64,000 nt of DNA from Owenia fusiformis (taxonomy: Eukaryota > Annelida > Polychaeta > Sabellida > Oweniidae). Positions 18,161 through 56,676 of this stretch are shown here, one piece after another. Under the pieces are notes generated by a model. The model did not search any database. It worked only from the letters and a program-made list of their open reading frames with translations, and was not told the DNA's origin. Position 1 is the first letter of the stretch. The number at the start of each line of letters is the position of its first letter. The stretch covers positions 28,732,425 through 28,796,424 of the forward strand of contig CAIIXF020000010.1 of assembly GCA_903813345.2 (NCBI GenBank), read 5' to 3'. The position numbers and the translations under genes were made by a program.

Positions 18161-18171
18161 TGAAAAAGGTT

Positions 18172-21120: not shown

Positions 21121-21137
21121 ACTTCAATCTTTTTATA

Positions 21138-24269: not shown

Positions 24270-26828
24270 TTATAATATAAGGCATCTCTTTTTGTCCTTT
24301 TTTCGCTTCAGTAATTTTTTCTTCCCCGCATTGACAGAGTTAGAAGTTGGTGGGAGACTGGTTGCATGGTTCACTGCACCAGAATCATCTGTAAATGATA
24401 TTCCAGAGGGTCTTTCATTTAGGGAGTGAACACCGTTTCCATCACTAGAGCTGCAGTGATCTGATTGGAGCACCGTGTTGTCATGGGCATAGTGGTCAAT
24501 GTTGGGACGAGCGCCAACATCAGATTGTGCTCCACGATGGTGTATTGCCTGACTTTGGGATTGTGGGTGACTTTTATTTGGTTGTTGTAAGTTAAAATGT
24601 TCACTGCCATTGCTACAGGCACTGCGGTCAATGTTGGGACGAGCGCCAACATCAGATTGCGCTTCACGATGGTGTATTGCCTGATTGTGGGATTGGCGGT
24701 GACTTTTATATGGAGATTGTAAGTTAAAATGTTCACTTTCGTTGCTACAGGCATAGTGGTCAATGTTGGGACGAGAGTCAACATTAGATTGCACTCCACG
24801 ATGGTGTATTGCCTGACTGTGGGATTGTGGCTGACTTTTATATGGCTGTTGTAAGTTGAAATGTTCACTTAAGTTGCTACAGGCATAGTGGTTAATGTTG
24901 GGACGAGAGTCAACATCAGATTGCGCTCCACGATGGTGTATTGCCTGACTGTGGGATTGTGGCTGACTTTTATATGGCTGTTGTAAGTTGAAATGTTCAC
25001 TTAAGTTGCTACAGGCATAGTGGTTAATGTTGGGATGAGCGCCAACATCAGATTTCGCTCCACGATGGTGTATTGCCTGACTTTGGGATTGTGGGTGACT
25101 TTTATTTGATTGTTGTAAGTTGAAATGTTCACTTCCGTTGCTACAGGCACTGCGGTCAATGTTGGGACGAGCGCCAACATCAGATTTCCTTCCACGATGG
25201 TGTATTGCCTGACTTTGGGATTGTGGCTGACTTTTATATGGCTGTTGTAAGTTGAAATGTTCACTTAAGTTGCTACAGGCATAGCGGTCAATGTTGGGAT
25301 GAGCGCCAACATCAGATTTCGCTCCACGATGGTGTATTGCCTGACTTTGGGATTGTGGGTGACTTTTATTTGATTGTTGTAAGTTGAAATGTTCACTTCC
25401 GTTGCTACAGGCATCGCGGTCAATGTTGGGACGAGCGCCAACATCAGATTGCGCTTCACGATGGTGTATTGCCTTACTGTGGGATTGGCGGTGACTTTTA
25501 TATGGTTGTTGTAAGTCAAAATGTTCACTTCCATTGCTACAGGCATAGTGGTCAATGTTGGGATGAGCGCCAACATCAGATTTCGCTCCACGATGGTGTA
25601 TTGCCTGACTGTGGGATTGGCGGTGACTTTTATATGGAGATTGTAAGTTAAAATGTTCACTTTCGTTGCTACAGGCATCGCGGTCAATGTTGGGAGGAGC
25701 GCCAACATCAGATTTCCTTCCACGATGGTGTATTGCCTGACTGTGGGATTGGCGGTAACTTTTATATGGCTGTGGGTGACTTTTATATGGAGATTGTAAG
25801 TTAAAATGTTCACTTTCGTTGCTACAGGCATCGCGGTCAATGTTGGGACGAGCGCCAACATCAGATTTCCTTCCACGATGGTGTATTGCCTGACTGTGGG
25901 ATTGGCGGTAACTTTTATATGGCTGTTGAAAGTTTAGATGTTCACTTCCGTTGCTACGAGCGCCAACATCAGATTTTGCTCCACGATGGTGTATTGCCTG
26001 ACTATTGGATTGGCTGTGACTTTTATATGGTGATTGTAAGTTAAAATGTCCACTTCGGAATGTTGCATCTTGGTCAGGGTGTCTTGCGTAGCTCTGGCTA
26101 TGTGTACCCTTACCTACTTTGGCTTTTGGTTCCTCTTGAGGACGTGAAATTGGGTTCATAGTACTCTGTGCCAAAGCACTTGAGTCCTGATTTAATATCC
26201 AATCGATCTGTCGATTGTCTTTAATTTGACTAAGATAGATAACACCATTGGGTGCACTGGTGTCAAACAGAGTGGAGAGTAGATCCTTTTTTTCTGAACT
26301 TTCTTTTAATTGGTTTTTACTTTGACATGATCTGAGTACTCCCATTTGCGGTATTTTTCGCATATTGCGAGATAGGCCTGGCATGGAGCTACAAGAATAC
26401 CTGCGCCCCCTGGGGTCATGTTTTTCATTATTGTTTTCTAAGTAGCCATCAAACTCCTCAAGGCATAAGTTGAAATACTCCCGACTTTTTGCCCTTGTTA
26501 TTGCCTCCTCAGGTGGGGGAGGGTGCTGGGGAGGGGGAGGGTTCGGTATAGTTGGGGGTCTATGCCGAGCGTTTTGAACCCTGTTTTTCTTATTTTTCAC
26601 CTGGCAATCCTTGTTAATGTCCTCAATTCTGGGCAGAGGGGGTAACTGATTATTGAACTCCATTGTTGGGCCACCCTGAGCCAGCTTTCGTGACTTCCTC
26701 TCAATTCTGGCACTATATAAAATAGAGAATATTGCTTTGTTATAAGAAGTGTCTATATGTAAGAATCTCTTGTAATGTGCAGTAATCAGCAATGAGCCAA
26801 AAATACTCAGCACATATAAATAGTCCAT
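24270..26828 (-). CDS. Repeat protein with polybasic CaaX tail, copy 1
   Basis: No named family is recognised. The frame gives up to 852 residues. Residues 1-40 are probably intron or flank read-through: homology to copy 2 starts at ARIERKSRK (residue 40), and a good acceptor (TTCTCTATTTTATATAG) ends at 26713, making 26712 the likely exon start. Next come one degenerate LPPLPR unit (62-67), a polyproline stretch (91-106), a conserved block with KKDLLSTLFDTSAPNG (180-194), then about twelve 44-residue repeats (about 254-781). The unique tail ends NAGKKKLLKRKKDKKRCLIL. CLIL is a CaaX box with X=Leu, and the preceding basic run resembles K-Ras-type membrane anchors, so a cytoplasmic membrane-bound scaffold or receptor tail is inferred. 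Residues 117-137 (EYFNLCLEEFDGYL region) have almost no counterpart in copy 2. The ATG at 26826-26828 falls on the edge of a palindromic element. Confidence 0.75.
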   Translation of the reverse strand: MDYLYVLSIFGSLLITAHYKRFLHIDTSYNKAIFSILYSARIERKSRKLAQGGPTMEFNNQLPPLPRIEDINKDCQVKNKKNRVQNARHRPPTIPNPPPPQHPPPPEEAITRAKSREYFNLCLEEFDGYLENNNEKHDPRGRRYSCSSMPGLSRNMRKIPQMGVLRSCQSKNQLKESSEKKDLLSTLFDTSAPNGVIYLSQIKDNRQIDWILNQDSSALAQSTMNPISRPQEEPKAKVGKGTHSQSYARHPDQDATFRSGHFNLQSPYKSHSQSNSQAIHHRGAKSDVGARSNGSEHLNFQQPYKSYRQSHSQAIHHRGRKSDVGARPNIDRDACSNESEHFNLQSPYKSHPQPYKSYRQSHSQAIHHRGRKSDVGAPPNIDRDACSNESEHFNLQSPYKSHRQSHSQAIHHRGAKSDVGAHPNIDHYACSNGSEHFDLQQPYKSHRQSHSKAIHHREAQSDVGARPNIDRDACSNGSEHFNLQQSNKSHPQSQSQAIHHRGAKSDVGAHPNIDRYACSNLSEHFNLQQPYKSQPQSQSQAIHHRGRKSDVGARPNIDRSACSNGSEHFNLQQSNKSHPQSQSQAIHHRGAKSDVGAHPNINHYACSNLSEHFNLQQPYKSQPQSHSQAIHHRGAQSDVDSRPNINHYACSNLSEHFNLQQPYKSQPQSHSQAIHHRGVQSNVDSRPNIDHYACSNESEHFNLQSPYKSHRQSHNQAIHHREAQSDVGARPNIDRSACSNGSEHFNLQQPNKSHPQSQSQAIHHRGAQSDVGARPNIDHYAHDNTVLQSDHCSSSDGNGVHSLNERPSGISFTDDSGAVNHATSLPPTSNSVNAGKKKLLKRKKDKKRCLIL
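24486..26069 (-). repeat. 132-bp (44-residue) coding tandem array in copy 1
   Basis: About twelve units typified by SDVGARPNIDRYACSNGSEH and NLQQPYKSHPQSQSQAIHH. One unit is shortened and one carries a PYKSHPQ duplication. Indels keep frame. Units of two types (GSEH...QQSNKSHPQ and LSEH...QQPYKSQPQ) partly alternate, suggesting dimer-scale unequal exchange. Other frames also stay open because 132 is divisible by three. Confidence 0.95.
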
Positions 26829-29845: not shown

Positions 29846-30145
29846 CATATATCATACAATATTGAGCTGATGGAGATCATATATCATACAATATTGAGCT
29901 GATGGAGATCATATATCATACAATATTGAGCTGATGGAGATCATATATCATACAATATTGAGCTAATGGAGATCATATATCATACAATATTGAGCTGATG
30001 GAGATCATATATCATACAATATTGAGCTGATGGAGATCCTATATCATACAATATTGAGCTGATGGAGATCATATATCATACAATATTGAGCTGATGGAGA
30101 TCATATATCTACAATATTGAGCTGATGGAGATCATATATCATACA
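29846..30145 (+). repeat. 32-bp tandem repeat, about 9 copies
   Basis: Expanded version of the 18172 array, with near-identical units (single changes such as GAGCTAATGG and a one-base deletion near 30110), implying recent homogenisation. Confidence 0.95.
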
Positions 30146-30939
30146 ATAGATGCTACACATTTACTTATTCCCATTGTGGCTTCTACACTTATTCCATACA
30201 AAAAGCATTAGATAGAGGAACTCTGAAAAATCAGCATGACTTACCAGTTTAATATCAATGCAGAGAATGCAGATATCTGTTTCAGTCTATACAGCACACT
30301 TTTGCTGAAGAATTGTGTTGATATTTCTGAAAAATATAAGAAAACAAATGTCTTCATTATGTCAGTATATATTAATATTTTGTCTTGAAAACTTTCAAAC
30401 TTTCAACAGGCTTAGCAACTATGTCAAATGGAGGAGTTAAAACTTATGTTATGTCGACAAATGAGCAGTTTAAGGTCAAACTTTCTACAGTAACTTAAAA
30501 TCAAGGCATGAAGATGCAAAAAGTCACCACCTGCCAAACACCAACTGGAGAACATTGAACAATGTCCACAAAAAAGTTGGAGACAATAACAATATGTCAC
30601 CACTTGTGGTGGTGACATAATATTGAGCTGATGGAGATGATGATGATAAAGTTGCCCATCTTGCCTCATCAATTTCTTTCAATAAAATTAAAGCATAGAG
30701 GGCTCTGTATATGTGACATGCCTCATACTTTCAAATCCTTAAGTAAGTGCAAAAATCAACAAGGCATTAACATGCAAAATGTCACCACCTGCCATTTGTT
30801 ATAGATGCCAAACACCATACACCAACTGCCGCCACAAAAAGGTTGGAGACTATAACAATATGTCACCACTTATGGTTGTGACATAAAAATGTGCTAAGGC
30901 ACAGCCCAGAAAAATATAATATACCCTCACCAATACACT

Positions 30940-31189
30940 AGATGCGAGTAGATATAGTCCTGATTAATCCTGAAAGTTAAACATCTTTTCTTGTAATTGA
31001 CAGATAATATTTTCTTTAACTGGACATATTTTAATTTGCATAACTATTAGATACATAAGGGTGATATGAAAATTGAACCGCTAAAACAGATGAATATTAT
31101 GTTAAAGGGAACTTTCTCCTATACCCGCCATGCTATCTGACCCGAATGAGCCACCTAATGGTGAAACTGGTAACTACCTACTCGCATCT
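30940..31189. mobile_element. ~250-bp MITE in unit 2
   Basis: Ends AGATGCGAGTAG and CTACTCGCATCT. Unit 1 lacks it at the equivalent position (about 19580). The target duplication is unclear. Confidence 0.75.
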
Positions 31190-31830
31190 GAGTCATTACC
31201 TGTACGTGGGTATATAAATAGTCGTCTGTGACTATGCACAAGACGGTTCTAAGTTCTAATTTCAAAACCCGCTGAGTCTCAGGTGTATATATCATATACT
31301 GTATACCCCATGTCTCACATTTCCCAGTAAATTATGTCATGAAATGCCTTCTTTAGTCTAGCTACAAGCCTCTGCGACCCCCTCCCCCTCTGCTTGACTA
31401 AACACCTTGTCACGCAGTGTGTAAGGTCTAGTAGCTAGACTATGCCTTCTTCTATTCAGACTGTATTATAGCTGTAATTTTGAATATTTTGAATTAAACC
31501 TCTGTTTGGCCTGAGGTTTATATGAATGTTGGGGATGGTGGCAGGGAGGGGGGCAGGTCTGTAATCGGATGTATTATGGATGGTGATCATAAGGAAAACA
31601 AATCTCTTTTATTCAAAGCACAACATTTTTTGATCATGGCCAGCCAGATTTGTTTCCTCCTATAAATCTTCAAAAAGTCGCTTTCTTTTAAAGCTTTCAA
31701 AAATGGGTAACAAAATCATGTGCATCTAAAAGTTTTGTTCAGTTTGTTCTTTGAGTATCTGATTTAAATAATACATCTATTACATAGAAGATGAAAAGGT
31801 ACATTATTAATAGTGGCAGACATCTCCAAA

Positions 31831-32675
31831 CAAGACACACAGTGATAAATATCACACTTTGAAGAGCAAACTGGCCACCATGCAATTTACCCAGCATGGC
31901 CAAAACCTAATCAGACCTTGGCACTAGTCTGCTCTTGCATCTGTAAACATATCAAGTTGACAAGGTTAGCGGTTTTCCTGCAATTTTGATGACAAGAATT
32001 TATTTGTAGTCTTGGACTTTGGGAAAATTTAGATAACATTGTTTGTGACCTAATTTGATGACCTTCGACCTTGAAAATTTCACTTTTTCAGACCTCAGTA
32101 GGTGTTTTGTAATTAAGCTGACCTAAATTTAAATCCAAAATATCAATTTAGAAAATCAACTTTCTTGACCTTTTCAAGGTCACTGAAGGTGAACGAAAGG
32201 TCAAATCTGAGATCTAAGGTCAGATTTGAACTTCTGAGAACTTGTAGATGTTTTTTTTAAAAAAAATTGGTCAATTTGGAGCAAGTTGAAAAATTCAAAA
32301 TGGCCGCCAAATTGAAAAATTCAAAATGGCCACCATGTAATTCAGCCAGCATACCCAAAACCTAATCAGATCTTGCCAATAGTCTGCTCTTGCATCTGTA
32401 AAAATTTCAAGTTGAACGGATAAGTGGTTTTCCTGGAATTTTGATGACAAGATATGTTGAAAAATTCAAAATGGCCACCACGTAGTTTACCCAGCATGCT
32501 CTTAACCTAATCAGATCTTGGTACTAGTCTGCTCTTGCATCTGTAAAAATTTCAAGTTGAACAGGTAAGCAGTTATCCTGGAAATTTGATGACAAGATTT
32601 GATTTATGTGCCGCCCACCCACCCGCCCAACAGCACAAGACAACGACAATATAGCACTTTTTCAAAGTGCGATAA
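31831..32675 (+). mobile_element. Element with TATCGCACTTTGAA ends, copy A
   Basis: Starts CAAGACACACAGTGATAAAT, then ATCACACTTTGAAG, and ends TTCAAAGTGCGATA, so the subterminal repeats are inverted. The interior has AAAATGGCCGCC and ACCTAATCAGATCTTGG modules and a CCGCCCACCCACCCGCCC stretch. Absent at the matching unit 1 site (about 20115). Non-autonomous. Confidence 0.85.
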
Positions 32676-32789
32676 AAAAGATTGGGCCTAAAGTATGCCC
32701 CTTCCCACATAAATGCCCAGGGCAGTTAAGATAATGAACGATATTAAGCATTTTATTAATTTTGCTTAATTTTGAAGAAATGACATATA

Positions 32790-33778
32790 CAGGGTGGTCC
32801 AAAAAAAGTGAACCCCTGCAACAGGCTACATTTTTCTTAATACATGCATGAATTGGCTCATATTATCACATGTTGTAGAGAAAGGTCTAAAATTTTGGTT
32901 GATGCCATACTTTATTCTCAGTCTTAAATTTTGAAGAAATTACAAGCGTTTTACAAACATGCCTGGAAATTAGACATTGTACAAAATTTTACAAATGTGA
33001 TTCACGGAAATTGTTGAAACATATTGGATGATCTTAAACAGCTTTCAGTTAGAGTTTAAAACCCTACCATATGACAAAAGGGACACTATTCAAGCAGAAA
33101 ACACATTTCACACTTTCATTGATCATTTTGAAGCATTTTTAACTGTTCAACAGTTCAGGGGTATGTTACCTACACCAACAGTTAGAGGGGGGCCTCTTAT
33201 GGAAGGAAGTTGCCCCCTGTGACCAGGAATCTGATAACCCCTTCATCGAATATCTATAAAAAATCAAAAGAAAATCCAATATTCAATGTTTTGAGCCATA
33301 TATCATTAGAATTAGTCCATGATTTATGAAGATATTGACAATTCAAGATCATATAGGGGTATGCTCATGATTTCACTGGAAAATGTTTTCGTCTGGGGAA
33401 GCTTAGCACATCTCTTGGATCACAATAACTTTGCGACTAACAAATGTAGGATACTAGTTTTAAGCCATAATGTGCAGCGTTTGAAATTGAACAAAGTCAG
33501 AAAATTTTAGTTCTTTAAGACTGCAGCTTAAAAAATTCTCAGGGGAAAGGTGTTTAAGGGTTGAAGAATCGCGGATATTGAAAATCACAATTTATCCATT
33601 TTCAGTAATGTTTGGTTAGGGCTTATAATTTCTGCAAATTTCAAGACTAAGAAAAATGTATGGTACCAACATAAATTTTAGACCTTCCTCTACAACATGT
33701 GAAAATAAAAAAAGAATTCCTGCAAGTAATAGGGGAAATATGGCCAGTTGCAGGGGTTCACTTTTTTGGACCACCCTG
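32790..33778. mobile_element. 989-bp mariner-type non-autonomous element
   Basis: Ends CAGGGTGGTCCAAAAAAAGT and the inverted CTTTTTTGGACCACCCTG, continuing into GAACCCCTGCAAC / GTTGCAGGGGTTC. TA flanks both sides (32788-32789 and 33779-33780). Absent from unit 1. The interior frames (33028-33222, 33319-33510) show no DDE motif. Confidence 0.9.
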
Positions 33779-34646
33779 TATTTGATGACTTTATTGCTGT
33801 GCCTGTTACAATATATCATTTAGTAGATATGCTGATATGTTACAAGATTCAAGATTTTATTGTGTTTCAAGCCAAAACAATTGACTTCCTCACAAAATCA
33901 ATTATGCCTAAATCATGAAATGGGATTTGAACATATTCAAGCAGATGTAAATCACTCTGTTTCATTGTTTATTTTGTTTTGTTGTTATATGTCAATGGGT
34001 ATTGGGTATTGTTAACATTATTCTGATTCTGAATATTTATTTACATATTTTTGATGACTTTATTGAGTGCCTGTTCCAATATATCATTTAGTAGATATGT
34101 TACAAGATTCAAGATTTTATTGTGTTTCAAGGAAAAACAATTGACTTCCTCACAAAATCAATTACAAGACATAATTATACAGTTATACGGTAAAATGCAT
34201 TATTAAAAAACATTTAAATATAACTATCTTACAAACTAGTTTATTCCTTTTTCAAATAGCTCCCAACGTTGATTGAAAGGTTTATTTATAAAATGTATCA
34301 ATTTCATAATCATTTGAAATCATTAAAACTTCTATTTTCTTCATCTTCATCCGACATATTTTCAAATGAGTCAATAAAACTTAGATTGTTAAAAAATTCA
34401 TATCTGCAATCTTTAGAACCATCGCTTAAAAGAAGAAAATAATTTTCATCTTCCACTTCCCCTTTATTACAAACTTGACAAATTTTGTCTTTTACTTCAA
34501 GTCGGTTCTGTTAAGTGCCATCTTTTTTCTAATCCGTCAAATTTTTAGCAAAAAATCCTATTATTTTCAACTCCAAATGTTGAAGATATAGGTCATTCAA
34601 ACTGCCACTAGGAGTTACGCCATCTATTTATTGAAAAGTCATTTAA

Positions 34647-35360
34647 CAAGACACACAGTGATAAATATCGCACTTTGAAGAGCAAACTGGCCACCATGCA
34701 ATTTACCCAGCATGGCCAAAACCTAATCAGACCTTGGCACTAGTCTGCTCTTGCATCTGTAAACATTTCAGTAGTCTGACCTCAGTAGGTGTTTTGTAAT
34801 TAAGCTGACCTAAATTTAAATCCAAAATATCAATTTAGAAAATCAACTTTTTTGACCTTTTCAAGGTCAATGAAGGTGAACGAAAGATCAAATCTGAAAT
34901 CTAAGGTCAGATTTGAACTTCTGAGAACTTGTAGATGTTTTAAAAAAAAAATTTGGTCAATTTTGAGCAAGTTGAAAAATTCAAAATGGCCGCCAAATTG
35001 AAAAATTCAAAATGGCCACCATGTAATTCAGCCAGCATACCCAAAACCTAATCAGATCTTGGCAATAGTCTGCTCTTGCATCTGTAAAAATTTCAAGTTG
35101 AACGGATAAGTGGTTTTTCTGGAATTTTGATGACAAGATTTGTTGAAAAATTCAAAATGGCCGCCACATAGTTTACCCAGCATGCCCTTTACCTAATCAG
35201 ATCTTGGTACTAGTCTGCTCTTGCATCTGTAAAAATTTCAAGTTGAACAGGTAAGCATTTATCCTGAAAATTTGATGACAAGATTTGGTTTATGTGCCGC
35301 CCACCCGCCCGCCCAACAGCACAAGACGACGACAATATAGCACTTTTTCAAAGTGCGATA
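34647..35360 (+). mobile_element. Element with TATCGCACTTTGAA ends, copy B
   Basis: Same start and end as copy A. Inserted after GAAAAGTCATTTA, where unit 1 continues uninterrupted (20633). Confidence 0.85.
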
Positions 35361-35829
35361 AAAACATGTGATAGATCCATATAAGGCTTCTAGGAGCATA
35401 TAGGAATCCACTTACTGTTGTCCGCCGTTTCGAATGTCATGTGATAGATCCATATAAGGCTTGTAGGACCAAGTAAGGAAAGTTAAAGGGACTCCCCTTA
35501 GTCTGATTTGAATTTCTAAGAACTTGTAGATGATTTTGAAAAAAAATTGGTCAATTTGAAGCAAGTTGAAAAAATACCTTTTTGACTTTTTTACCTTGAA
35601 GGCCAAATCTCAAACCTAAAGTTAGATTTGAACTTCTGGTAACTTGTAGATGATTTTGAAAAAAGAAATGTTCAATTTGAAGCCATCCTCCTAAGCTGTA
35701 AAAAAAGGAAGAACATATACTGGATTTGAAGCCCTGTGTACGGAGGATGATTTGAAGCAACTTGAAAATAAAAAATAATAAAAAATAGTACCATGGGTAC
35801 TGGGCTCACATGGTGTTGATCAAAAGTGA

Positions 35830-36169
35830 ATGATGGCTAAAATGATAGAAAATAAAAAAAAAACGGATATAATATTTTGCCGTTTTTTGTTACAAAATTA
35901 TTTCATACAACTACTCTTTACAAAGACATGGACCAAAAGTGAATTTCGTGAGACAAAATTGGTGGCCATTTTGAAAATAGGCGAGCTTTTGAAGCAGGAG
36001 TCACAGGTGTTTTTCTTTATTGATGTTGAACAAAAATATTTTAAAACAGAAATCCTATCTACAGAAGATTTAAAAAGAGCCAAGTGTTGGCAGAGGTTTA
36101 AAAACTTGCCACTATTTTGGACTGACTGAGAGACAAATCAATGTTAACTAAAATGCCTGAAAATAAAAA
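35830..36169 (+). repeat. ~300-bp AAAATGG-rich repeat
   Basis: Features TTTTTGTTACAAAATTATTT, AAAGTGAATTTCGTGAGACA, GGTGGCCATTTTGAAAATAG and TGAAGCAGGAGTCACAG. Copies are at 37617-37915, 37930-38230 and, split by an insertion, at 57075-57242 plus 59589-59870. The 99-codon frame here is a by-product. Confidence 0.6.
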
Positions 36170-38230: not shown

Positions 38231-38235
38231 GGACG

Positions 38236-45283: not shown

Positions 45284-45449
45284 CAATCCCCCCCTGGCCA
45301 AAATAATCTTTCAAAATTATACAGCTTTTCACCATTCTGAGCACTTTTTAAGTAAGTTTGGCCATTTTTGGACCAAAATTGTCACAAGTGAACCCCCCTG
45401 GAATTTTTCAAAAAGTGAACCCCCCTTGGCAAATCCTGGCTACAGGCCT
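45284..45449. mobile_element. Truncated MITE (GTAGCCAGG family)
   Basis: Orthologue of 21138-21271, with TTTCACCATTCTGAGCACTT and terminal CCTGGCTACAGGCCTG. Confidence 0.7.
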
Positions 45450-45869
45450 GGAATCATTTACATGTAATCTCAAAATGGTAGTAAAGGTTCAATGTGAGAG
45501 ATATTTTATTTTTTAACTTCATGAGTGCACTTGAAGTCCCCGATTCTTACCATTTCATGTTTCTTAATGTTCAGAGCAAATTACATTGGCTACTGGGCAA
45601 TGATGTACATAGTGTTAGTGGGCACAATATTGAAATTTTAGTCATTAAGAGTGTTAAACAATTTTTTGTTTTAAACAAATCTCATGCCTTGGTCACATTT
45701 GCTATGATTTTCACTACGGCGTATTTTGAGTATTTTGTTCAAAATTGAATACAATATTGAACAAAACACTCAATCGGGCGTGTGCCGGCCTAATGATACC
45801 AAAAAGTGAACATCCAAAAAACTGGAGAAAGTGTAATTTGTTAAGCTAACTTTAATTCTCATGCATTAA

Positions 45870-46179
45870 TGTATATTTATCATATTAAATAATATCAATC
45901 ATATTATTAAATCATAATAAATCATATCATACCGTACCATATAAATTACATCATATGAATTATCATACAAATCATATCATATATCAATCATATCATACCG
46001 TACCATATAAATTACATCATATGAATTATCATACAAATCATATCATATATCAATCATATCATACCGTACCATATAAATTACATCATATGAATTATCATAC
46101 AAATCATATCATATATCAATCATATCATACCGTACCATATAAATTACATCATATGAATTATCATACAAATCATATCATA
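45870..46179 (+). repeat. AT satellite, 66-bp units
   Basis: About four units of 66 bp, with ATCATACCGTACCATATAAA as landmark, starting near 45921. The 22-residue periodic open frame at 45955-46200 is an artefact of the 66-bp period. The satellite resumes at 47228 after the mariner insertion. Confidence 0.92.
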
Positions 46180-47227
46180 CGAGGGGTGATCAATAAGTAA
46201 TGGACGCTTTTTTACACGGATGCTTTTTATGGACCAATCTCTTTGATTTGTTCACCAGTGATACATCGTTCAATTATCTATCAACTCTGAAGATTTGAAG
46301 ACAAGATATGTAATACGTGTTGATATATCTTTATTTTCGTGAAGGGGGTACAGGTACCCCGGGACCGACATTTACGTCACATATTGTGAAGTAATGCCAA
46401 TTTAGCATATCAGTTAGATTTGAACATTTTGATATGCTAAAAGACTTTTGTTGTTTGAATATTATGCTGCCTGTGGTAACACATAAAAAATTAAAGTACT
46501 GTGATGTCAAAGTGTTGTATGGTCAGGGTTTGCAGGTTGATTTGAGAATCCACTGTGGAAGAAGGGACTAGTAAGAGGAGGTAACACCGTATTCCATGTG
46601 GATAATGCCCCTGCCCAAATATCTCAAACTGTGCAGGATACAATACCCCTGGACCTGAACATGAAGCCCTTCGCCCATGCAGCCTTTAGTCCAGATCTGG
46701 CCACACATGACTTACTTATTTCTATACTACTTATTTCTGTAGAGAAAGGATGCAGGTTTAATGACATTGATGAAATAAAACCAGCTGTGTAACTGCAGCT
46801 TGCTAACACGTCAGAGAATGGATTCGACCTTGCACTTGATGGAACCTATGTAGAGGGCCCTGTAAAATGAAAGTGGCATGAATGCCACAAAGTAATGACA
46901 AAATATTCAAAATCAACTATGGCGTATCGAAATGGTGTACTAGTAATTCATAACCATCATGGTTCGTTTTGTTCAACTTGCATTAAACTGCATTGCACGT
47001 TAAATGAGCTAAATAGCTTCAGAATGTGTGACGTTATGTCGGTCCCGGGGTACCTATACCTCCTTCACAGAAATAAAGATATATCAAAATATATTACATG
47101 CTTTGTCTATAAATCTTCAGAGTTGATAGAAAATTGAATGATGTATCACTGGTGAAAAAATTAAAGAGATTGGTCTATAAAAAGCATCTATATAAAAAAG
47201 CGTCCATTACTTATTGATCACCCCTCG
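46180..47227 (+). mobile_element. Decayed mariner-like element with ~200-bp inverted repeats
   Basis: Ends GAGGGGTGATCAATAAGTAA and the inverted TTACTTATTGATCACCCCTC, typical of mariner elements. The inverted repeats extend about 200 bp, through GTCCCGGGGTACC-type sequence. It lies inside the AT satellite. A clean TA duplication is not visible on the right. Confidence 0.88.
46589..46796 (+). pseudogene. Mariner transposase C-terminal fragment
   Basis: The frame gives HVDNAPAQISQTVQ, then FAHAAFSPDLATHDLL and GCRFNDIDEIKPAV. These match the mariner pattern HxDNAPAH...hPxYSPDLAPxDyxLF...G.RF.sdeEv, with the second catalytic Asp in the DNAP motif and the third in the SPDLA...D segment. The N-terminal half, including the first catalytic Asp region, is absent. 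Confidence 0.8.
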
Positions 47228-47437
47228 AATATCAATCATATTATATCTCATATTAAATACATGTAATATCAATCACAATATTAAATCATAATCATAATAA
47301 ATCATATCAACCATATCATACCTCACAATATAAATTATATCATATGAATTATCTGCAAATCATATCATATATCAATCATATGATATCTCATATTAAAAAA
47401 TGTAATATCAATCACATTATTAAATCATAATAAATCA
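47228..47437 (+). repeat. AT satellite segment
   Basis: Continuation of the unit 2 satellite between the mariner element and the composite element. Confidence 0.85.
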
Positions 47438-49463
47438 TAACCAGAACAACGGCAACGCCAAAGCGTAGCGAATCCCATCGAACAGAAATAGCTGGCATTT
47501 TTACAAACGAATAGCAAACATCATAAAACAACACACCAGAAAGGCCACCATTTTCAAAATGGTTGCTCACTAGCCAAGTTGTCATCAGAAGAAATAATTT
47601 GCTTTTAAGTAGCCACCTATAAAACTTTTGAAAAATCGCACACATGTACATGTAAAATAACACACATAAAAATGGTGGCCATTTTTCAAAATGGCCGACT
47701 ACTCCCCAAAGTTTTATTAGACAATGTGCCATGCTTAGAGTATTGACATATCAAATATGAACGATATCGCTTCACTACTTTTCAAGTTATAGTAAAAAAC
47801 GTAAAAATGGTGGCCATTTTTCAAAATGGCCGCCTACTACCCAAAGTGTCATGAGACAGTGTGCAAGGCTAATAGTATTCACATATAAAATATTAACAAA
47901 ATCGCTCTACTACTTTTCGAGTTATAGTAAATATGTTAAAATGGCGGCCATTTTTCAAAATGGCCACCTTCTACCAAAAGTGTCATTAGACAGTGTGCCA
48001 TGCTTAAAGTATTCACATACCAAATATGAACAAAATCGCTTCACTACTTTTCGAGTTATAGTAAAATACGTTAAAATGGCGGCCATTTTTCAAAATTTTT
48101 TGCAAAATGGCCACCTTCTACCAAAATTATAGTAAAATACGTTAAAATGGCGGCCATTTTGAAAAATGGCCGCCTTCTACCAAAGTGTCTTTAGACAGTG
48201 TGCAATGTTTATAGTATTCACATACCAAATATGAACAAAATCGCTCCACTACTTTTCAAAAATCGTAAAATAACGAGTAAAGGCCGCCATTTTTAGAGAT
48301 GGCTGCCATGCGCTTTTTATCTAATATCTACATTTGTAGCTTTATTAATTTTTTTACATTTAAAACAAATTGCTATTACAGTTTTACATATTGCACCTAA
48401 ATTACTGTAAAATCGGCACTAAAATGGCCGCCATTTTGAAATGAGCGGCCATTTTGAAAATCGGCTTTCAAGCAGAACTTGTACCCCCATAGGGTATCAC
48501 AGGCTGGTATCGAAAGATTTGTCCGCTGTGACGGAGCATGCTATTTTTCATAAAAACACTAAGAATGCTTCACGATTTATTTTTTAACTCATATATTTCG
48601 TTATATCAAAGATAATTACTTACACCATGCAATGGATATATCATTTGCGTGTAACCTTCACTTCTGTTTGAAGTCCAATAACGCTAGGAGTAAAATCTAT
48701 TGAAAACGGCGCCAGAGTATCAAACTCTAAAACGTACCATTTCTTTTTTAACTTTTTAATGGCATGATATAGTGACACGATAATATTAACATATGTTTTA
48801 AGCATAACTCTGAATGTATAAATGAGATATTAATGCATTGGGTCTTTTTAATTTTTTTAATAAAAAATAATATTAATATTTTTTGTCCGCTGTGACGGAG
48901 CATTTTCACAGTTCACATTTGCAACTGCTCCGTCACAGCGGACAAAAAAATTAAACATTATTTTTTATAAAAGAATTTAAAAGACCAAATACATCAACAT
49001 CTCATTTATACCTTCATAGTTATGCTGAAACCATGTGTAAATATTATCGTGTCACTATATCGTGCCATTAGAAAGTTAAACAAGAAATGGTACATTTTGA
49101 AGTATGATACTCCAGCGCCATTTTCAATAGCTTTTCTTCCCAGCGTAATTGGACTTCAAACAGAAGTGAAAGTTACCCGCAAATGATATATCCATTGCAT
49201 GGAGTAAGTAATTTTGTATGGTATAATGAAACATATGAGTTAAAAAATAAATCGTGAAGTATTCTTAGTGTTTTTATGAAAAATAGCATGCTCCGTCACA
49301 GCGGACAAATATTTCGATACCAGCCTGTGGGTATATGTGTACAAAATATGAACAAAATCGGGCAAACGGTATTTGAGTTATTGCCCGGACGGACGGACGG
49401 ACGGACGGACGGATGGAGGCGTTCCCTATATCCCTCCGAACTTTGTTCGATGGGATAATAAAT
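47438..49463 (+). mobile_element. Composite repeat element, second copy, with nested foldback
   Basis: Same start (CCAGAACAACGGCAACGCCA) and 3' end (CGAACTTTGTTCGATGGGAT) as 15077-16265. Internal units are spaced about 135 bp. A 5' extra segment CACATGTACATGTAAAATAA is present. The foldback 48498-49329 is inserted at GGTAT near its 3' end. ATAATAAATCAT flanks both ends in the satellite, so the true boundary or target duplication (up to 12 bp) is ambiguous. Confidence 0.85.
48498..49329. mobile_element. 832-bp foldback, CACAGGCTGG ends, 5-bp target duplication
   Basis: Nearly perfect palindrome with ~400-bp arms. The ends are CACAGGCTGG and CCAGCCTGTG, flanked by GGTAT on both sides (48493-48497 and 49330-49334). 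The first composite element shows the empty target (CCCCATAGGGTATATGTG, GGTAT at 16083-16087), so the boundaries are exact. The 20-bp motif TTGTCCGCTGTGACGGAGCA occurs at both ends and, inverted, at the centre. No coding capacity. Confidence 0.95.
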
Positions 49464-49629
49464 CATATCAATCATATCATACCTCACAATATAAATTATA
49501 TCATATGAATTATCATACAAATAAAATCATATATCAATCATATTATATCTCATGTCAAATCATACTTATCATAGCAATGATCATACCATATGCTACTATA
49601 TCATACCATATCATATTGCCTAACATATA
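49464..49629 (+). repeat. AT satellite segment
   Basis: Unit 2 counterpart of about 22040-22175. Confidence 0.85.
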
Positions 49630-50280
49630 CAGGGTGTCCAAAAAGTATTGTTGCCCTCCTAGGCGGACATATACCAATGTCTTCATAGTATGTGTCATAT
49701 ACCATTTTAAAGCTTATCAAAACTTACATTGATTTGCCAAGTATTATGGTTCAACTATCACCTCACAAATGGTAAAAAGTTACAGGCATTTCAAAACTTA
49801 GTGTTTGGCCAAAAATATAGTTCATTACAATATCCTGGAAACAGCCCTAACCTGAATGTGACCGAAAATATGGGTTCTATTGTCGACAAAAGGATGGATA
49901 TTGAGTTCTAAAAAGAGGAAGTTGAGGGTAGATACTCAAAGAAAACACTTCTTGAATGCCTTAAAAAGGTTTTATGAGGAATACAAAATGGCAAATCCCT
50001 ATTTGAAGCACATTTAAGGTCATATATGGTAAGCATTGCTGCCGCCATTAACATGGCTTAGGGAGACACACTGACTATTATTTTGGTGTAAAAATGACTT
50101 TAATTTTGGCCAAACACTAAATTTTGAAATGCCTGTAACTTTTTCCCATTCGTGAGTTAAACTGTGATACTTGGCAGATCAATGTAACTTTGGATGATCT
50201 TGAAAATGATATATGGCACATACCATGAAGACATTGGTATATGTATGCCTAAGGCCCCCCAATACTTTCGGGACACCTTG
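49630..50280 (+). mobile_element. 651-bp Tc1-like non-autonomous element
   Basis: Ends CAGGGTGTCCAAAAAGTATT and the inverted AATACTTTCGGGACACCTTG, with inverted repeats of about 180 bp. TA flanks both sides (49628-49629 and 50281-50282), and unit 1 has the empty site (about 22180). The centre keeps a transposase tail fragment. Confidence 0.93.
49831..49911 (+). pseudogene. Tc1-like transposase tail fragment
   Basis: YPGNSPNLNVTENMGSIVDK corresponds to the well-known Tc1-family segment WPGNSPDLNPIENLW..., and the Glu of 'TEN' aligns with the catalytic Glu of DD34E enzymes. It is truncated at both sides. Confidence 0.75.
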
Positions 50281-50282
50281 TA

Positions 50283-50705
50283 TAATGACTATATCATATC
50301 ATATATCATTGTATATAATTTTATAAAACTTATCATCATATCATGACTACATATATCATATTAAATATCATTGTATATAATCTTATAAAACTTATCATGA
50401 TTACAAATATCATATTAAATATCATTGTTATAATCTTATAAAACTTATCATGATTTCATATATCATATTAAATATCATTGTATATAATCTTATAAAACTT
50501 ATCATGATTACAAATATCATATTATATATCATTGTATATAATCTTATAGAACTTATCATGATTACATGTATCATTGTATATAATCTTATAAAACTTATCA
50601 TGATTACGTATTGGTATATCATACTAAATATTATAACACATCATATAATATAAAATATCATGTGTCATATTACATCATATATCATGTCACATCATATATC
50701 ATATT
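50283..50705 (+). repeat. AT satellite with 54-bp units
   Basis: Unit 2 counterpart of 22190-22740, with about six units containing CTTATCATGATTACAAATAT. Confidence 0.9.
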
Positions 50706-51786
50706 ATATATCAGTGGAGACGCTAACCCCATTTAACGTGAAGTATGACAATTGCCATGTTGCACAACAATTGATGTGAAATTAAGAAGCATAAGTGCGC
50801 ATGTCAATAGATAATAACAGCAATTGCCATAATGTCCGTCAATGTGACGTGCAATATTTTGAACGGCAATTGATGTGCAAACTATAATCTTGTGAAAGTT
50901 TTATATATTATCGGAGGGACAACAGGCAGTTATAAACTGGGAAACTAGTGGGTAAATCAATTAAAATCATGATCTGCATTGTATGTAAGTTAAATTCATA
51001 AATATTTGCTATTGTCCAGGTTGCATTTTGAACTTACAACTTTTATGTTGCACTTGCGTAAATGTTTACAATAAATATTTTTTCAAAAGCACACCGAAAG
51101 TATGGCCTGAAGTAAACAAAAGATGGAAAGAAAACTTATAAATTCTGATCTAATGAGGATGGTAATTTAAATTGTTTATAATTCATTTAAGGTAAGGATC
51201 ATTGTAAAGAAGGTTTAAAAATAAAATCCAGCCAAAAAAAAATAATTAGACTTTCCAAGAATGCAAGTTCGGTGGTGACTTCATTGGTTCGACACATTGA
51301 CAGAAAATTCACAAGATTGAACTGCATTTCTCCACAATTTTCGAATGAAATACTTCCCTGGGATTTAATATACCATTGATGTTTACCAAAATATATGCAC
51401 TATGAGAGATTATTATGAATATTACTTAGACTGTATATATTAAATACTGGATCTTCTAATGAACCTAGTGTTTCAAATTATAAATCAAAATGGACAATAT
51501 GGTTATTGACGTGATTCACGTCAATTGATGTGCAAATGGCAATCTCTGTGATACACGTTAAATGGAGTTTGTGTCTCCACTGTATATGATCCCATGTCAT
51601 ATGGTATATCATGTATAATTTCACAGCATAGCTTATCACATTGCACTATATATCATATCATATCATATTTGTAATGTAACACATCATAATATCTGATCAT
51701 TTATCTTATCACATGGGTAGGAGTTTCTAAGCATTTTGATTGGTCAATTGTGACAACGTATATTCCGTATCACACGACACATGACT
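50706..51786. other. Unit 2 flank without supported gene
   Basis: Begins with sequence shared with 22745-22860 (AGTGGAGACGCTAACCCCAT). The stretch to about 51600 is not present in unit 1 at this position. No coding support. Confidence 0.45.
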
Positions 51787-52150
51787 AATTTTCATGTGAT
51801 ACAGAGGGCTGTATCACTACGGAGTCAATAGTAATGATATAACATCGATGGTTATATCACATCGTAGCTAAAGAAAACAGTATGACGTCATATTATTTCA
51901 CTAAAAAGTATGAATACAACAGTATGACGTCATATCATTTCAAAGCGAAATTTCAAAACACTGAAATATTATAATAGTTACCAGAGGTACAAAGTACTGA
52001 ACACAATCATAATTGACCAAATCCAAATTCCCCAAAATTCCTAGTCATGTGATAAAATCGTCATCACACGCTTCAGCTGTGATGTTCACTTGAGTCATGA
52101 TACATTGTTACCCGAATGGAATATTTCCTGAAACGTGTGATAATATCATA
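51787..52150. other. Unit 2-specific block with two CRE palindromes
   Basis: Inserted (or lost from unit 1) between ATGACTAAT and CTATAAAAAACA. AGTATGACGTCATAT occurs near 51885 and again near 51919. TGACGTCA is the full palindromic CREB/ATF site. Confidence 0.55.
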
Positions 52151-52383
52151 TCTATAAAAAACAACATTTTTTCTGCAATTTCTCACATCAAATGGCAGCC
52201 ATCTTGTTTTTCCCCCTTCAAATTAAACTGGTGGAAAATTCTAAATTTTGAGAACATTTAAAACCCTAAATAGAATATGTTTCAAAAATATGATTTCTTT
52301 CTTCATGGCTTTAAATTATTTTTGCTTTGTACTTCATTCATGTTGCCATTGGTGTTTTTTCTGTGATAACAACTAAGGTATTT

Positions 52384-52891: not shown

Positions 52892-53604
52892 TATTTGTTT
52901 TTTGTTAAGATACTTATGTTTACCCTAAGTACCCTTATGCATCAAAACTCGTGAAAAAGTAAATATACTTATCAAATATAACTAGGGCATTAACAAAAAC
53001 CATATTTTACAAACATTTAAGTGAGGGATCAAAAGGGCATATATCCTGACTCATCCTTTCTGCGGATAAACAATTGTGACAACAAGTGCCTGCGATAAAC
53101 TTAAGGACTGAAATTTTTTAAAGATGACAATGAAATATTAATTAAGGTGATAATTAGCTCAAATCATGTCACTTTTCGTAATTGTAATTATCTTTCAAAA
53201 TTCATTCTCAGTTTTTGAAGACAGATGCTTAAAATCTAGTTTACAAAAATGTATAAATGAAAAACTCAGGCCTAAATATGTTACTTATACTGTGTGCAGG
53301 ATACCAAAAAACTGAAAATTAGCAAATTACAATACCCACAAATTAGCTGAAAATTTAACATTTTTGAAGATGAAATGAGGCATTAATGAAGGTGACAATT
53401 ACCTCAAAAATCAGATTTTCATAATTGTAATCATATTCAAAATTGAGTCTCATTTTTTCAAGACAGATGCTTAAAATCCAGTTTACCAAAATGTACAATT
53501 GAAAAACTCAGGCCTAATATATGTATACAAGGCTAGAAAAAGAGCAAAAGTACACACTTTCTTAACTTAATAAAATATACACAGTTCTTTGAATACTGCA
53601 TTGG

Positions 53605-56600
53605 TTATGATACAAGGCATCTCTTTTTTTCCTTTTTTCGCTTTAGTGATTTTTTCTTCCCCGCATTGACAGAGTTAGAAGATGGTGGGAGACTCGTTGC
53701 ATGGTGAACTGGACCAGAATCATCCGTAAATGTTATTCCAGAGGGTCTTTCATTTAGGGAGTGGACACCGTTTCCATCACTAGAGCTGCAGTGTTCTGAT
53801 TGGAGCTCCCTGTTGTCATGGGCATAGCAGTCAATGTTGGGACGAGCACCAACATCAGATTGCGCTCCACCATGGTGTATTGCCTGACTTTGGGATTGGC
53901 GGTGACTTTTATATGGCTGTTGTAAGTTTAAATGTTCACTTCCGTTGCTACAGGCATAGTGGTCAATGTTGGGGCGAACGCCAACATCAGATTGCGCTCC
54001 ACGATGGTGTATTGCCTGACTTTGGGATTGGCGGTGACTTTTATTTGATTGTTGTAAGTTAAAATGTTCACTTAAGTTGCTACAGGCATAGCGGTCAATG
54101 TTGGGATGAGCGCCAACATCAGACTTCGCTCCACCATGGTGTATTGCCTGACTTTGGGATTGTGGGTGACTTTTATATGGCTGTTGTAAGTTTAAATGTT
54201 CACTTCCGTTGCTACAGGCATTGTGGTCAATGTTGGGATGAGCGCCAACATCAGATTTCGCTCCACCATGGTGTATTGCCTGACTGTGGGATTGTGGGTG
54301 ACTTTTATATGGAGATTGTAAGTTAAAATGTTCACTTCCGCTGCTACAGGCATAGCGGTCAATGTTGGGATGAGCGCCAACATCAGATTTCGCTCCACGA
54401 TAGTGTATTGCCTGACTGTGGGATCGTGGGTGACTTTTATATGGAGATTGTAAGTTGAAATGTTCACTTCCATTGCTACAGGCATAGCGGTCAATGTTGT
54501 GATGATCGCCAACATCAGATTGCGCTCCACGATGGTGTATTGCCTGACTGTGGGATTGGCGGTGACTTTTATATGGTTGTTGTAAGTCAAAATGTTCACT
54601 TCCATTGCTACAGGCATAGCGGTCAATGTTGGGACGAGCGCCAACATCAGATTTCGCTCCACAATGATGTATTGCCTGACTGTGGGATTGGAGGTGACTT
54701 TTATAAGGTGATTGTAGGTAGTGACTCTTACCTCCTTTGGCTTTTGGTTCCTCTTGAGGGTGCGAAATTGGGTCCATAGCACTCTGTGCCTGATCACCCG
54801 AGTCCTGATTTAATATCCAACTGATTTGTCGATTGTCTTTAATTTGACTAAGATAGACAACACCATTGGGTGCACTGGTGTCAAACAGAGTGGAGAGTAG
54901 ATCCTTTTTTTCTGAACTTTCTTTTAATTGGTTTTTACTTTGACATGTTCTGAGTACTCCCATTTGTGGTGTTTTTCGCATATTGAAAGGTAGGCCTGGC
55001 ATAGAGCTACAAGAATACCGGCGCCCCCTGGGGTCATATTTTCGACTTTTTGCCCTTGTTATCGCCTCCTCAGGTGGGGGAGGGTGCTGGGGAGGGGGAG
55101 GGTTTGGTATAGTTGGGGGCCTATGCCGAGCGTTTTGAACCCTGCTTTTCTTATTTTTCACCTGGCAATCCTTGTTAATGTCCTCAATTCTAGGCAGAGG
55201 GGAAAACTGATTATTGTTCCCCATTGGGGCTCCATAGGCACTTGATTTATTTGAGCAACTCTCACTTGTGTTGTAACTCCCAACCTGAGTCGACTTTCGT
55301 GACTTCCTTTCAATTCTAGGCAGAGGGGGTAACTGATTATTGTGCCCCATTGGGGCTTCATCGGCACTTGTTTTATTTGAGCAACTCTCACTTGTGTTGT
55401 AACTCCCAACCTGAGTCGACTTTCGTGACTTCCTTTCAATTCTAGGCAGAGGGGGTAACTGATTATTGTGCCTCATTGGGGCTTCATCGGCACTTGTTTT
55501 ATTTGAGCAACTCTCACTTGTGTTGTAACTCCCCACCTGAGTCAACTTTCGTGACTTCCTTTCAATTCTAGGCAGAGGGGGTAACTGATTATTGTGCCTC
55601 ATTGGGGCTTCATCGGCACTTGTTTTATTTGAGCAACTCTCACTTGTGTTGTAACTCCCAACCTGAGTCGACTTTCTTGACTTCCTTTCAATTCTAGGCA
55701 GAGGGGGTAACTGATTATTGTGCCCCATTGGGGCTTCATCGGCACTTGTTTTATTTGAGCAACTCTCACTTGTGTTGTAACTCCCAACCTGAGTCGACTT
55801 TTGTGACTTCCTTTCAATTCTAGGCAGAGGGGGTAACTGATTATTGTGCCTCATTGGGGCTTCATCGGCACTTGTTTTATTTGAGCAACTCTCACTTGTG
55901 TTGTAACTCCCAACCTGAGTCGACTTTCTTGACTTCCTTTCAATTCTAGGCAGAGGGGGTAACTGATTATTGTGCCCCATTGGGGCTCCATCGGCACTTG
56001 ATTTATTTGAGCAACTCTCACTCATGTTGTAACATCCAATCTTAGCCGACCTTTGTGAACTACTCTCAATTTGGTTAAAACTAGATTTATTTGATTTGGT
56101 TTCACTAAATGCAGTGTCATTGGCAATATTATTTGTCCTACAGGGGTCATTCAGTACGGCATCACCATATCCTCTGTATGGGATTCCTCTGTATGGAATT
56201 CCTCTGTATGGGATTGCGATTTCCTCATATATATGCTCGTGATTGTTTGAACCAGTGTTACTATTGTAACCCGCACTATTCACTGGGCTCCCACTGTTGT
56301 ATCCATTCTTTGGATCCTGGCTATCAATCGTACGGGTGTCATAACCAGTGTTCAACAGAATTGTATGGGTATGATTGTTCCAGTTTATGTTGCTAAGGTG
56401 AGAAATATCCCTGATTAGGAAGTGAGAAGAGCTGGCAACATTCTGAATTGAGCAGCCATTTGCATTGCCATATAATGTTGCCTCATCTGAGATCTTTGGA
56501 TCCTGGCTATCAATTGTATGGGTGTCATGACCAGTGTTTATAAGAGTTGCATAGATATGTTCGTTGCTGTCCTCTAATTTCGCCTCATCTCGGCAATATT

Positions 56601-56676
56601 CCATTTGTGCTGCAAATAGATAATACAATACCATAAGCACTGCATTTGCCACTAACCCATAAAAGGAATAATACAA
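53605..56676 (-). CDS. Tyrosine/proline repeat protein with CaaX tail, copy 2
   Basis: No named family is recognised. The frame gives up to 1023 residues. Residues 1-22 are hydrophobic, but a strong acceptor (TATTGTATTATCTATTTGCAG) ends at 56610, so they may be intron; the exon would start at 56609, just before Met25. Visible in order: YATL (Tyr42, in EHIYATL), an internal duplication of NTGHDTHTIDSQDPK (about 48-61 and 109-123), YEEI (Tyr150, in EHIYEEIAIPY) followed by three PYRG repeats, seven 42-residue repeats ending LPPLPR (203-496), polyproline (519-535), a conserved block (KKDLLSTLFDTSAPNG, 590-605), about seven 44-residue repeats (648-952), and a tail with KKKSLKRKKEKKRCLVS. pYEEI is the classical Src-family SH2 ligand, LPPLP is an SH3-type core, and CLVS is a farnesyl-type CaaX. 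The role is inferred to be a membrane-anchored signalling scaffold or the last exon of a receptor. Confidence 0.8.
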   Translation of the reverse strand: MYYSFYGLVANAVLMVLYYLFAAQMEYCRDEAKLEDSNEHIYATLINTGHDTHTIDSQDPKISDEATLYGNANGCSIQNVASSSHFLIRDISHLSNINWNNHTHTILLNTGYDTRTIDSQDPKNGYNSGSPVNSAGYNSNTGSNNHEHIYEEIAIPYRGIPYRGIPYRGYGDAVLNDPCRTNNIANDTAFSETKSNKSSFNQIESSSQRSAKIGCYNMSESCSNKSSADGAPMGHNNQLPPLPRIERKSRKSTQVGSYNTSESCSNKTSADEAPMRHNNQLPPLPRIERKSQKSTQVGSYNTSESCSNKTSADEAPMGHNNQLPPLPRIERKSRKSTQVGSYNTSESCSNKTSADEAPMRHNNQLPPLPRIERKSRKLTQVGSYNTSESCSNKTSADEAPMRHNNQLPPLPRIERKSRKSTQVGSYNTSESCSNKTSADEAPMGHNNQLPPLPRIERKSRKSTQVGSYNTSESCSNKSSAYGAPMGNNNQFSPLPRIEDINKDCQVKNKKSRVQNARHRPPTIPNPPPPQHPPPPEEAITRAKSRKYDPRGRRYSCSSMPGLPFNMRKTPQMGVLRTCQSKNQLKESSEKKDLLSTLFDTSAPNGVVYLSQIKDNRQISWILNQDSGDQAQSAMDPISHPQEEPKAKGGKSHYLQSPYKSHLQSHSQAIHHCGAKSDVGARPNIDRYACSNGSEHFDLQQPYKSHRQSHSQAIHHRGAQSDVGDHHNIDRYACSNGSEHFNLQSPYKSHPRSHSQAIHYRGAKSDVGAHPNIDRYACSSGSEHFNLQSPYKSHPQSHSQAIHHGGAKSDVGAHPNIDHNACSNGSEHLNLQQPYKSHPQSQSQAIHHGGAKSDVGAHPNIDRYACSNLSEHFNLQQSNKSHRQSQSQAIHHRGAQSDVGVRPNIDHYACSNGSEHLNLQQPYKSHRQSQSQAIHHGGAQSDVGARPNIDCYAHDNRELQSEHCSSSDGNGVHSLNERPSGITFTDDSGPVHHATSLPPSSNSVNAGKKKSLKRKKEKKRCLVS
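53821..54733 (-). repeat. 132-bp (44-residue) coding tandem array in copy 2
   Basis: About seven units (SDVGAHPNIDRYACSNGSEH...QSQAIHH), against about twelve in copy 1, showing copy-number change since duplication. The alternate-frame open stretches at 54192-54797 and on the plus strand are shadows. Confidence 0.95.
55189..56070 (-). repeat. 126-bp (42-residue) coding tandem array in copy 2
   Basis: Seven units of IERKSRKSTQVGSYNTSESC, SNKTSADEAPMGHNNQ and LPPLPR. The central five are nearly identical (R/G, S/L and R/Q changes only), while the outer ones are diverged (one ends FSPLPR). Copy 1 keeps just one degenerate unit. Confidence 0.95.
56609..56631 (-). other. Probable 3' splice site of the copy 2 coding exon
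   Basis: On minus, TATTGTATTATCTATTTGCAG precedes CACAAATGGAATATTGCC. The T-rich tract and CAG are good acceptor features. If used, the hydrophobic first 22 residues of the open frame are not translated. Confidence 0.5.

Follow-up and report, generated by a model that had tools for sequence, protein, structure and literature searches.

Repeat-rich reading frames of Owenia fusiformis as probable copies of the Prickle tail without PET and LIM domains

Introduction

What kind of gene is represented by two long, repeat-rich reading frames on contig C10 of the annelid Owenia fusiformis? The window analyzed here is a stretch of 64,000 nucleotides (G000:C10:28732425-28796424). A preliminary description had taken the two frames for an undescribed family, a prenylated scaffold or receptor tail carrying tyrosine motifs and SH3-type repeats. 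Homology searches covering the whole 498 Mb genome showed that both frames match the tail of Prickle, a member of a well-characterized family, and the label "undescribed" is withdrawn. We refer to the two window copies as A and B, to a third tail on contig C10 as copy 3, and to the full Prickle gene, located on contig C5, as the C5 gene. The reading that we favor, with moderate confidence, is that the copies are a natural cluster of genes for prenylated Prickle tails without PET and LIM domains, which would modulate the Vang/Prickle complex.

Results and Discussion

Two frames with a polybasic CaaX end

Only two frames of at least 250 amino acids, counted from stop to stop, were present in the window, and both were on the minus strand. 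As previously described, each ends in a Lys/Arg-rich run and a CaaX box.

24270-26855, minus strand: frame A, stop to stop, 861 amino acids
24270..26712, minus strand: tail exon of copy A, a probable Prickle paralog without PET and LIM, from the probable acceptor (..TTTTATATAG) to the stop
24285..24323, minus strand: polybasic run of copy A, KKKLLKRKKDKKR
24273..24284, minus strand: CaaX box of copy A, CLIL
53605-56676, minus strand: frame B, stop to stop, 1023 amino acids
53605..56609, minus strand: tail exon of copy B, a probable Prickle paralog without PET and LIM, from the probable acceptor to the stop
53620..53658, minus strand: polybasic run of copy B, KKKSLKRKKEKKR
53608..53619, minus strand: CaaX box of copy B, CLVS, identical to that of the C5 gene

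Frame A closes with ...KKKLLKRKKDKKRCLIL and frame B with ...KKKSLKRKKEKKRCLVS, each followed directly by the stop. The CaaX boxes are CLIL in A, CLVS in B and CIVS in copy 3, each with 10 Lys or Arg among the preceding 26 residues; a CaaX box and polybasic run end all 4 tails when that of the C5 gene is included. A final Leu in a CaaX box, as in CLIL of copy A, suggests a geranylgeranyl rather than a farnesyl group. Pfam searches of A and B gave no accepted domain. All matches other than Prp19 were below the cut-off, and the Prp19 match of frame A, although above it, was rejected because it falls inside the repeat array. A search of solved structures with frame B gave no match. The polybasic CaaX tail and the proline-containing, multivalent character claimed in the preliminary description are thus seen in the sequence, and prenylation is established for Prickle (PMC3715439).

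Match to the Prickle tail

The genome search with frame B returned 4 loci, namely B itself, A, copy 3 and a locus on C5 (12 matches among the best 45 of 63 candidates), and the same 4 loci came back (11 matches) when most of the Prickle tail served as the query. Copy 3 sits approximately 41 kb beyond B, outside the window, with matches within G000:C10:28830279-28831313; its frame (stretch L003, 780-2048, 423 amino acids) ends in CIVS. In the C5 locus, PET is followed by a LIM domain on a separate exon; the final exon encodes 2 LIM stretches and then the tail, which closes with a polybasic run and CLVS. Its PET domain matched PF06297 (E value 8e-29, 100 bits against a cut-off of 25). Its 3 LIM domains comprise one in L001 7358-7663 and 2 stretches in L001 8262-9899; the genome-wide LIM search shows only 2 of the 3. 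The PET and LIM residues of this gene presumably resemble those of Prickle, a resemblance not counted as a test. Testin, also a PET and LIM protein, provided the closest solved LIM structure to LIM2-3 of the C5 gene (2xqn, E value 4.8e-31). Testin is not known to have a CaaX tail, whereas the C5 gene ends in CLVS. PET, 3 LIM domains and CaaX are the layout described for Prickle (PMC11116189, PMC3164692). Since the C5 locus has this layout and both frames match its tail, frames A and B are read as copies of the Prickle tail, and we regard their derivation from it as nearly certain.

In the matched stretches, copy A was 61-68% identical to the C5 tail, 83-84% to B and 65% to copy 3. The tails of the copies overall were 61-76% identical to that of the C5 gene in matched stretches, and only B compared to copy 3 fell to 51-52%. 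The copies resemble Prickle in segment order, polyproline, polybasic CaaX end and a homologous 3' untranslated region (UTR). They differ from it in that no PET or LIM was found with the C10 copies, that segments of A and B are amplified into arrays, that A ends in CLIL, and that copy 3 has LSPLPR in place of LPPLPR. Copy 3 retains the acidic cluster of Prickle, CSTCSSSSDDDDDYFLD, as CSTWSNSSEDDNFLD; A and B no longer have it (CSSSDGNGVHSLN). This cluster may be one of the Vangl-binding motifs of Prickle; the solved-structure search gave no match for the Prickle tail end, nor for the PET exon. Two acidic Vangl-binding motifs are reported near the Prickle C-terminus (PMC12859043).

Search for PET and LIM near the cluster

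The genome-wide search for PET gave 3 matches, 2 on C5, 1 on C11 and none on C10. Of 66 genome-wide LIM matches, only 2 were on C10, both at 15.6 Mb, and Prickle LIM2-3 used as the query gave 9 matches genome-wide, none of them on C10. When the PET and LIM exons were compared without speed filters to the frames of the window and of stretches L003-L006, nothing was significant (lowest E value 0.075); the same was true for the frames of L007-L009 (lowest E value 0.016, for PET). Although genome searches may miss weak matches, these results are strong, if not absolute, evidence that the copies lack the front half of Prickle.

Tandem arrays and short motifs

Tandem Repeats Finder detected 132-base arrays of 9.8 copies in A and 6.7 copies in B, and a 126-base array of 6.9 copies in B. 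Counted by residues, the 44-residue unit occurs 11 times in A with a QAIH anchor, plus one KAIH unit seen in the alignment, and 7 times in B, in agreement with the earlier report of 44-residue repeats and LPPLPR in both frames. The 42-residue unit, a second repeat family of B that the preliminary description missed, occurs 7 times in B and once, in part, in A.

24486..26056, minus strand: 44-residue (132-base) array of copy A, approximately 12 units, from a segment that is single in Prickle
53821..54705, minus strand: 44-residue array of copy B, 7 units
55184..56058, minus strand: 42-residue array of copy B, 7 units, with LPPLPR in 6 and FSPLPR in 1
56542..56553, minus strand: YATL of copy B, in a segment resembling the YANL segment of the Prickle tail
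56218..56229, minus strand: YEEI of copy B, absent from the other 3 tails (Prickle, copy 3 and A)

Each repeat unit of A and B corresponds in the alignment to a segment that occurs once in Prickle, the LPPLPR segment for the 42-residue unit and the QPYKSHRQSHSQAIH segment for the 44-residue unit; copy 3 has no array. LPPLPR is found once in A and 6 times in B, one per unit within the 42-residue unit. The earlier idea of SH3-type repeats as a design is therefore not upheld. On the alignment, LPPLPR is an inherited Prickle segment multiplied along with its repeat unit, with no independent SH3 design.

The tyrosine motifs YATL and YEEI are present in B and absent from A, as stated earlier; as a theme, however, they are weak, with YATL resembling YANL of Prickle and YEEI private to B among the 4 tails. 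The YATL of copy 3 lies at a place unrelated to that of B. In an immunoreceptor tyrosine-based activation motif (ITAM), two YxxL/I motifs stand close together. YATL and YEEI begin at residues 18 and 126 of the B tail, and their separation of 108 residues is unlike the closely spaced pair of an ITAM or SH2-docking receptor. The only close YxxI/L groupings were YEEI/YRGI/YRGI (126, 133 and 138) in B and YATL/YKSL (285 and 293) in copy 3, and none was common to the copies.

Edges and flanks of the copies

In B and copy 3, homology to Prickle begins directly after LIM3. Upstream of this point the two have approximately 35-50 bases in common that are absent from Prickle, ending in TATTTGCAG in B and TATTTGTAG in copy 3.

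56610..56622, minus strand: probable splice acceptor of copy B, TATCTATTTGCAG, common to copy 3 (..TATTTGTAG) and absent from Prickle
56604-56602, minus strand: possible start ATG of copy B, giving 999 amino acids
26663-26661, minus strand: possible start ATG of copy A, giving 797 amino acids
26706..26816, minus strand: dispersed genomic repeat giving a false N-terminus of A (MDYLYVLSIF...), probably non-coding
24066..24269, minus strand: 3' UTR of copy A, with homology to the 3' UTRs of B, copy 3 and Prickle
53438..53604, minus strand: 3' UTR of copy B, homologous to that of Prickle
18171..23516, unstranded: downstream part of the duplicated block of copy A, pairing with 30069-52275 of B
30069..52275, unstranded: downstream part of the duplicated block of copy B, swollen by insertions

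Directly upstream of the acceptor, B and copy 3 differ by an 8-base, frame-shifting indel, so the hydrophobic stretch before the acceptor of B is probably intron and the residues before about 56609 are probably non-coding. In frame A, 46 of the 54 genome matches fall in the N-terminal Met/hydrophobic start (approximately residues 5-41). The frames reported earlier are indeed open, but their starts probably do not stand, that of A being the dispersed repeat and that of B lying in this probably non-coding stretch. No poly(A) tract was seen by eye at the end of the common 3' UTR, which favors duplication at the DNA level over a retrocopy without proving it. The duplicated non-coding flank is approximately 4 times longer on the B side than on the A side by way of insertions, and could serve as a clock for repeat insertion.

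Probable retention of the copies as coding sequence

The argument that the frames are retained rests on the count of indels between A and B, with the non-coding parts of the same duplicated block as the control. Over all 15 aligned stretches, there were 2 indels (21 and 24 bases) in 2,254 coding bases compared to 58 in 3,549 non-coding bases (Fisher P 1.8e-10), and 10 of these 58 were multiples of 3. Both coding indels come from the array stretch 25146-26041. A narrower count over 12 stretches, which left out the satellite stretches, one flank stretch and this array stretch, gave 0 indels in 1,603 coding bases and 42 in 2,551 non-coding bases. A 57-base in-frame difference between aligned stretches was counted in neither tally.

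Other comparisons were made with base-level alignments. Between Prickle and the copies, 21 of 24 indels in the central and C-terminal segments were in frame, compared to 9 of 31 in the 3' UTR; between A and B, 1 of 2 indels was in frame in the central segment and the C-terminal segment had none. The ratio of nonsynonymous to synonymous substitution (dN/dS) in single-copy codons was 0.47 for A and B (bootstrap 0.26-0.86), 0.52 for Prickle and copy 3, 0.58 for Prickle and B, 0.55 for A and copy 3, and 0.59 for B and copy 3; values against Prickle blend its own constraint with that of the copies. The single-copy parts of the 3 copies contained no stops. Neutral simulation predicted 2.2-3.7 stops for the Prickle-to-copy and B-copy 3 comparisons, and none was seen (P 0.02-0.10 each).

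Several observations weigh against retained tail genes with a role of this kind. Substitution between A and B was 0.087 in coding sequence (0.075 in single-copy codons) compared to 0.069 in non-coding sequence and 0.052 in the UTR alone (193 bases). Coding sequence therefore changes no more slowly than non-coding sequence, and amino acid constraint is weak. The dN/dS of Prickle and A was 0.70, with an upper bound above 1 (0.47-1.05). The stop simulation for A and B expected fewer than 2 stops with none seen (P 0.18-0.41) and is uninformative alone. Some base-level indel counts do not fit and were set aside because the alignments were poor. In the N-terminal segment, the in-frame indels were 4 of 8 for Prickle-copy 3, 4 of 11 for Prickle-B and 8 of 18 for copy 3-B. 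For copy 3 compared to B they were 5 of 11 in the central and 1 of 13 in the C-terminal segment, and for copy 3 compared to A, 4 of 10 and 3 of 9. With no Met near its 5' edge, copy 3 would require either a coding exon further upstream or a start codon deep within the frame. Finally, Prickle without PET and LIM largely mimics the wild type according to unpublished data cited in PMC13132548.

Taken together, these comparisons show that the frame and the C-terminal end are kept while the sequence drifts, as expected for a disordered protein. The copies are probably genes, and at least one of them is very likely functional coding sequence.

Alternative explanations

The copies could be decaying fragments of a Prickle pseudogene, held open by chance and by homogenization of the repeats. 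In favor of this, the conserved front half is missing, the coding substitution rate is equal to or above that of the flanks, and repeats of 126 and 132 bases remain open automatically on copying. However, coding indels between A and B are few and in frame (2 in 2,254 bases against 58 in 3,549 non-coding bases), the single-copy parts of 3 copies are free of stops, and every tail ends in a polybasic run and CaaX box; we consider such decay very unlikely. Also very unlikely is a novel scaffold or receptor whose multivalency rests on motifs for SH2 and SH3 domains, although B does contain YATL, YEEI and 6 LPPLPR. Homology to the Prickle tail already explains the architecture, YEEI is private to B and 108 residues from YATL, and LPPLPR is carried by the repeat at one per unit.

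The copies could also be the 3' exons of chimeric genes. A coding exon further upstream, which might belong to a receptor, would be spliced to the Prickle tail, and the tail would then serve as a cytoplasmic part tethered to the membrane. The probable phase 1 acceptor that B and copy 3 have in common, absent from Prickle, would fit such splicing, as would the lack of a nearby Met in copy 3 and an immunoglobulin (Ig) V/I-set exon approximately 6 kb upstream of copy 3 on the same strand. The Ig exon, however, has 16 genome matches, of which 4 (itself included) are at least 86% identical, and 2 of these 4 are far from any tail. The other C10 frames in the searched stretches, including the surroundings of B, held no further Ig exon (next best E value 2.9). 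No candidate exon common to the upstream regions of all 3 copies was recognized, and the common stretches among the matches listed look like repeats. A scan for coding potential, for which one gene was the training set, turned up repeats and weak candidates, and the 5' edge of copy A is in a different phase. We therefore find the chimera unlikely. The Ig exon was rejected as a receptor part of copy 3, having near copies away from the tails and no equivalent near B in the searched frames; it probably belongs to another gene family and may still be linked to copy 3. The earlier "receptor tail" is likewise not supported, as no transmembrane segment was seen by eye in the exon past the probable acceptor and the nearby Ig exon is not tied to the tails.

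Single Ig V/I-set exons were noted at L003 8202-8609 (minus strand), L009 4281-4691 (minus strand) and G000:C10:29167572, with 87-93% identity to the one in L009. A near copy lies approximately 15 kb further than the one upstream of copy 3. The Ig exons near and beyond copy 3 are on the same strand and perhaps form a small Ig gene cluster.

Proposed origin and role

Under our favored reading of the copies as PET- and LIM-less Prickle tails, part of the last Prickle exon, from right after LIM3 through the 3' UTR, would have been duplicated onto contig C10. The insert would have acquired a splice acceptor at its 5' edge and then been duplicated in place to at least 3 copies. These may have been retained as coding sequence for long, probably disordered chains that a prenylated polybasic CaaX end would anchor at the plasma membrane. 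Arrays of proline-rich and Gln/His/Ser-rich units would have grown from tail segments in A and B. Transcription, disorder, prenylation, partners and antagonism of the copies are all inferred.

A Strabismus/Vang gene was found in the genome, matched in 2 adjacent stretches. From the presence of this gene and the literature on the Prickle tail, we propose that the copies are membrane-bound modulators of Vang/Prickle. Elements for Vang interaction and CaaX are described in the C-terminal half of Prickle (PMC4440771). In the fly wing, the function and recruitment of Prickle are reported to require its farnesylation (PMC3715439). In transfected cells, Vangl2 is reported to induce the degradation of Prickle2 in a way for which farnesylation is not essential (PMC6393536). 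The copies may act as membrane-bound competitors or as extra scaffold on the Vang/Prickle side of planar cell polarity, and in A and B direct binding to Vang may be gone, with the arrays acting in its place. Whether they act on planar polarity at all is somewhat doubtful, at a little below an even chance. More tentatively still, they could be a natural PET- and LIM-less family that buffers or competes with full-length Prickle at the membrane. Its members would differ in tuning, with the acidic and possibly Vang-binding cluster retained in copy 3 and traded for arrays in A and B, and with A perhaps having switched to a geranylgeranyl anchor.

The closest engineered likeness is Prickle1-deltaPET/LIM (Pk1deltaPL), from which PET and LIM are removed and which is reported to be dominant negative in Xenopus and to disturb Vangl2 polarity (PMC4467192). 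That construct was engineered from an ordinary Prickle1. The C10 copies, by contrast, arose naturally, were amplified and have diverged, and any effect of theirs is only predicted. The closest natural likeness is PRKL-1B of C. elegans, a short Prickle isoform without PET (PMC3164692); it differs in being described, in the cited passages, as lacking PET only, and in being an isoform of one gene rather than a separate tail-only gene. No description of tail-only Prickle genes was found among the titles and abstract openings that searches of the open-access literature returned.

Other observations around the cluster

A frame at 58596-59045 (minus strand) was rejected as an upstream exon of B, being a mobile-element-like repeat. 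All 150 scored candidates of its genome search matched (the best 150 of 2,323), and Pfam gave no match. This frame and another at approximately 59025-59351 (plus strand) are mobile-element-like repeat frames that occur as inverted pairs here and elsewhere. At 38223-42471 (minus strand), a unit of approximately 550-620 bases (frames EVRRTITSKRVTEDNIRTSVRGRGEF...) is repeated several times, with a strong AT skew (-0.29 and -0.34 in two 2 kb bins). At 7162-7881 (minus strand), a 19-base tandem repeat keeps 3 overlapping frames open; these are long and hydrophobic, with no gene evidence and no Pfam match. Outside the window, L009 5659-9900 holds a long tandem array of approximately 113 bases per unit with several frames open, and frames at L008 8266-9234 (minus strand) resemble, as judged by eye, the end of a reverse transcriptase of the long interspersed nuclear element (LINE) type.

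Significance

The family is ordinary and the form is unusual, a probable natural cluster of Prickle tails without PET and LIM in which 2 of 3 copies are repeat-expanded. Long repeat proteins that look novel can arise from single-copy segments in the tail of a known protein. To block planar polarity, developmental biologists construct a Prickle reduced to its membrane-anchored tail. If our reading is true, 3 such genes would be a natural test of how the Prickle tail functions without PET and LIM, and partial duplication would be able to split and retune a core component of planar polarity.

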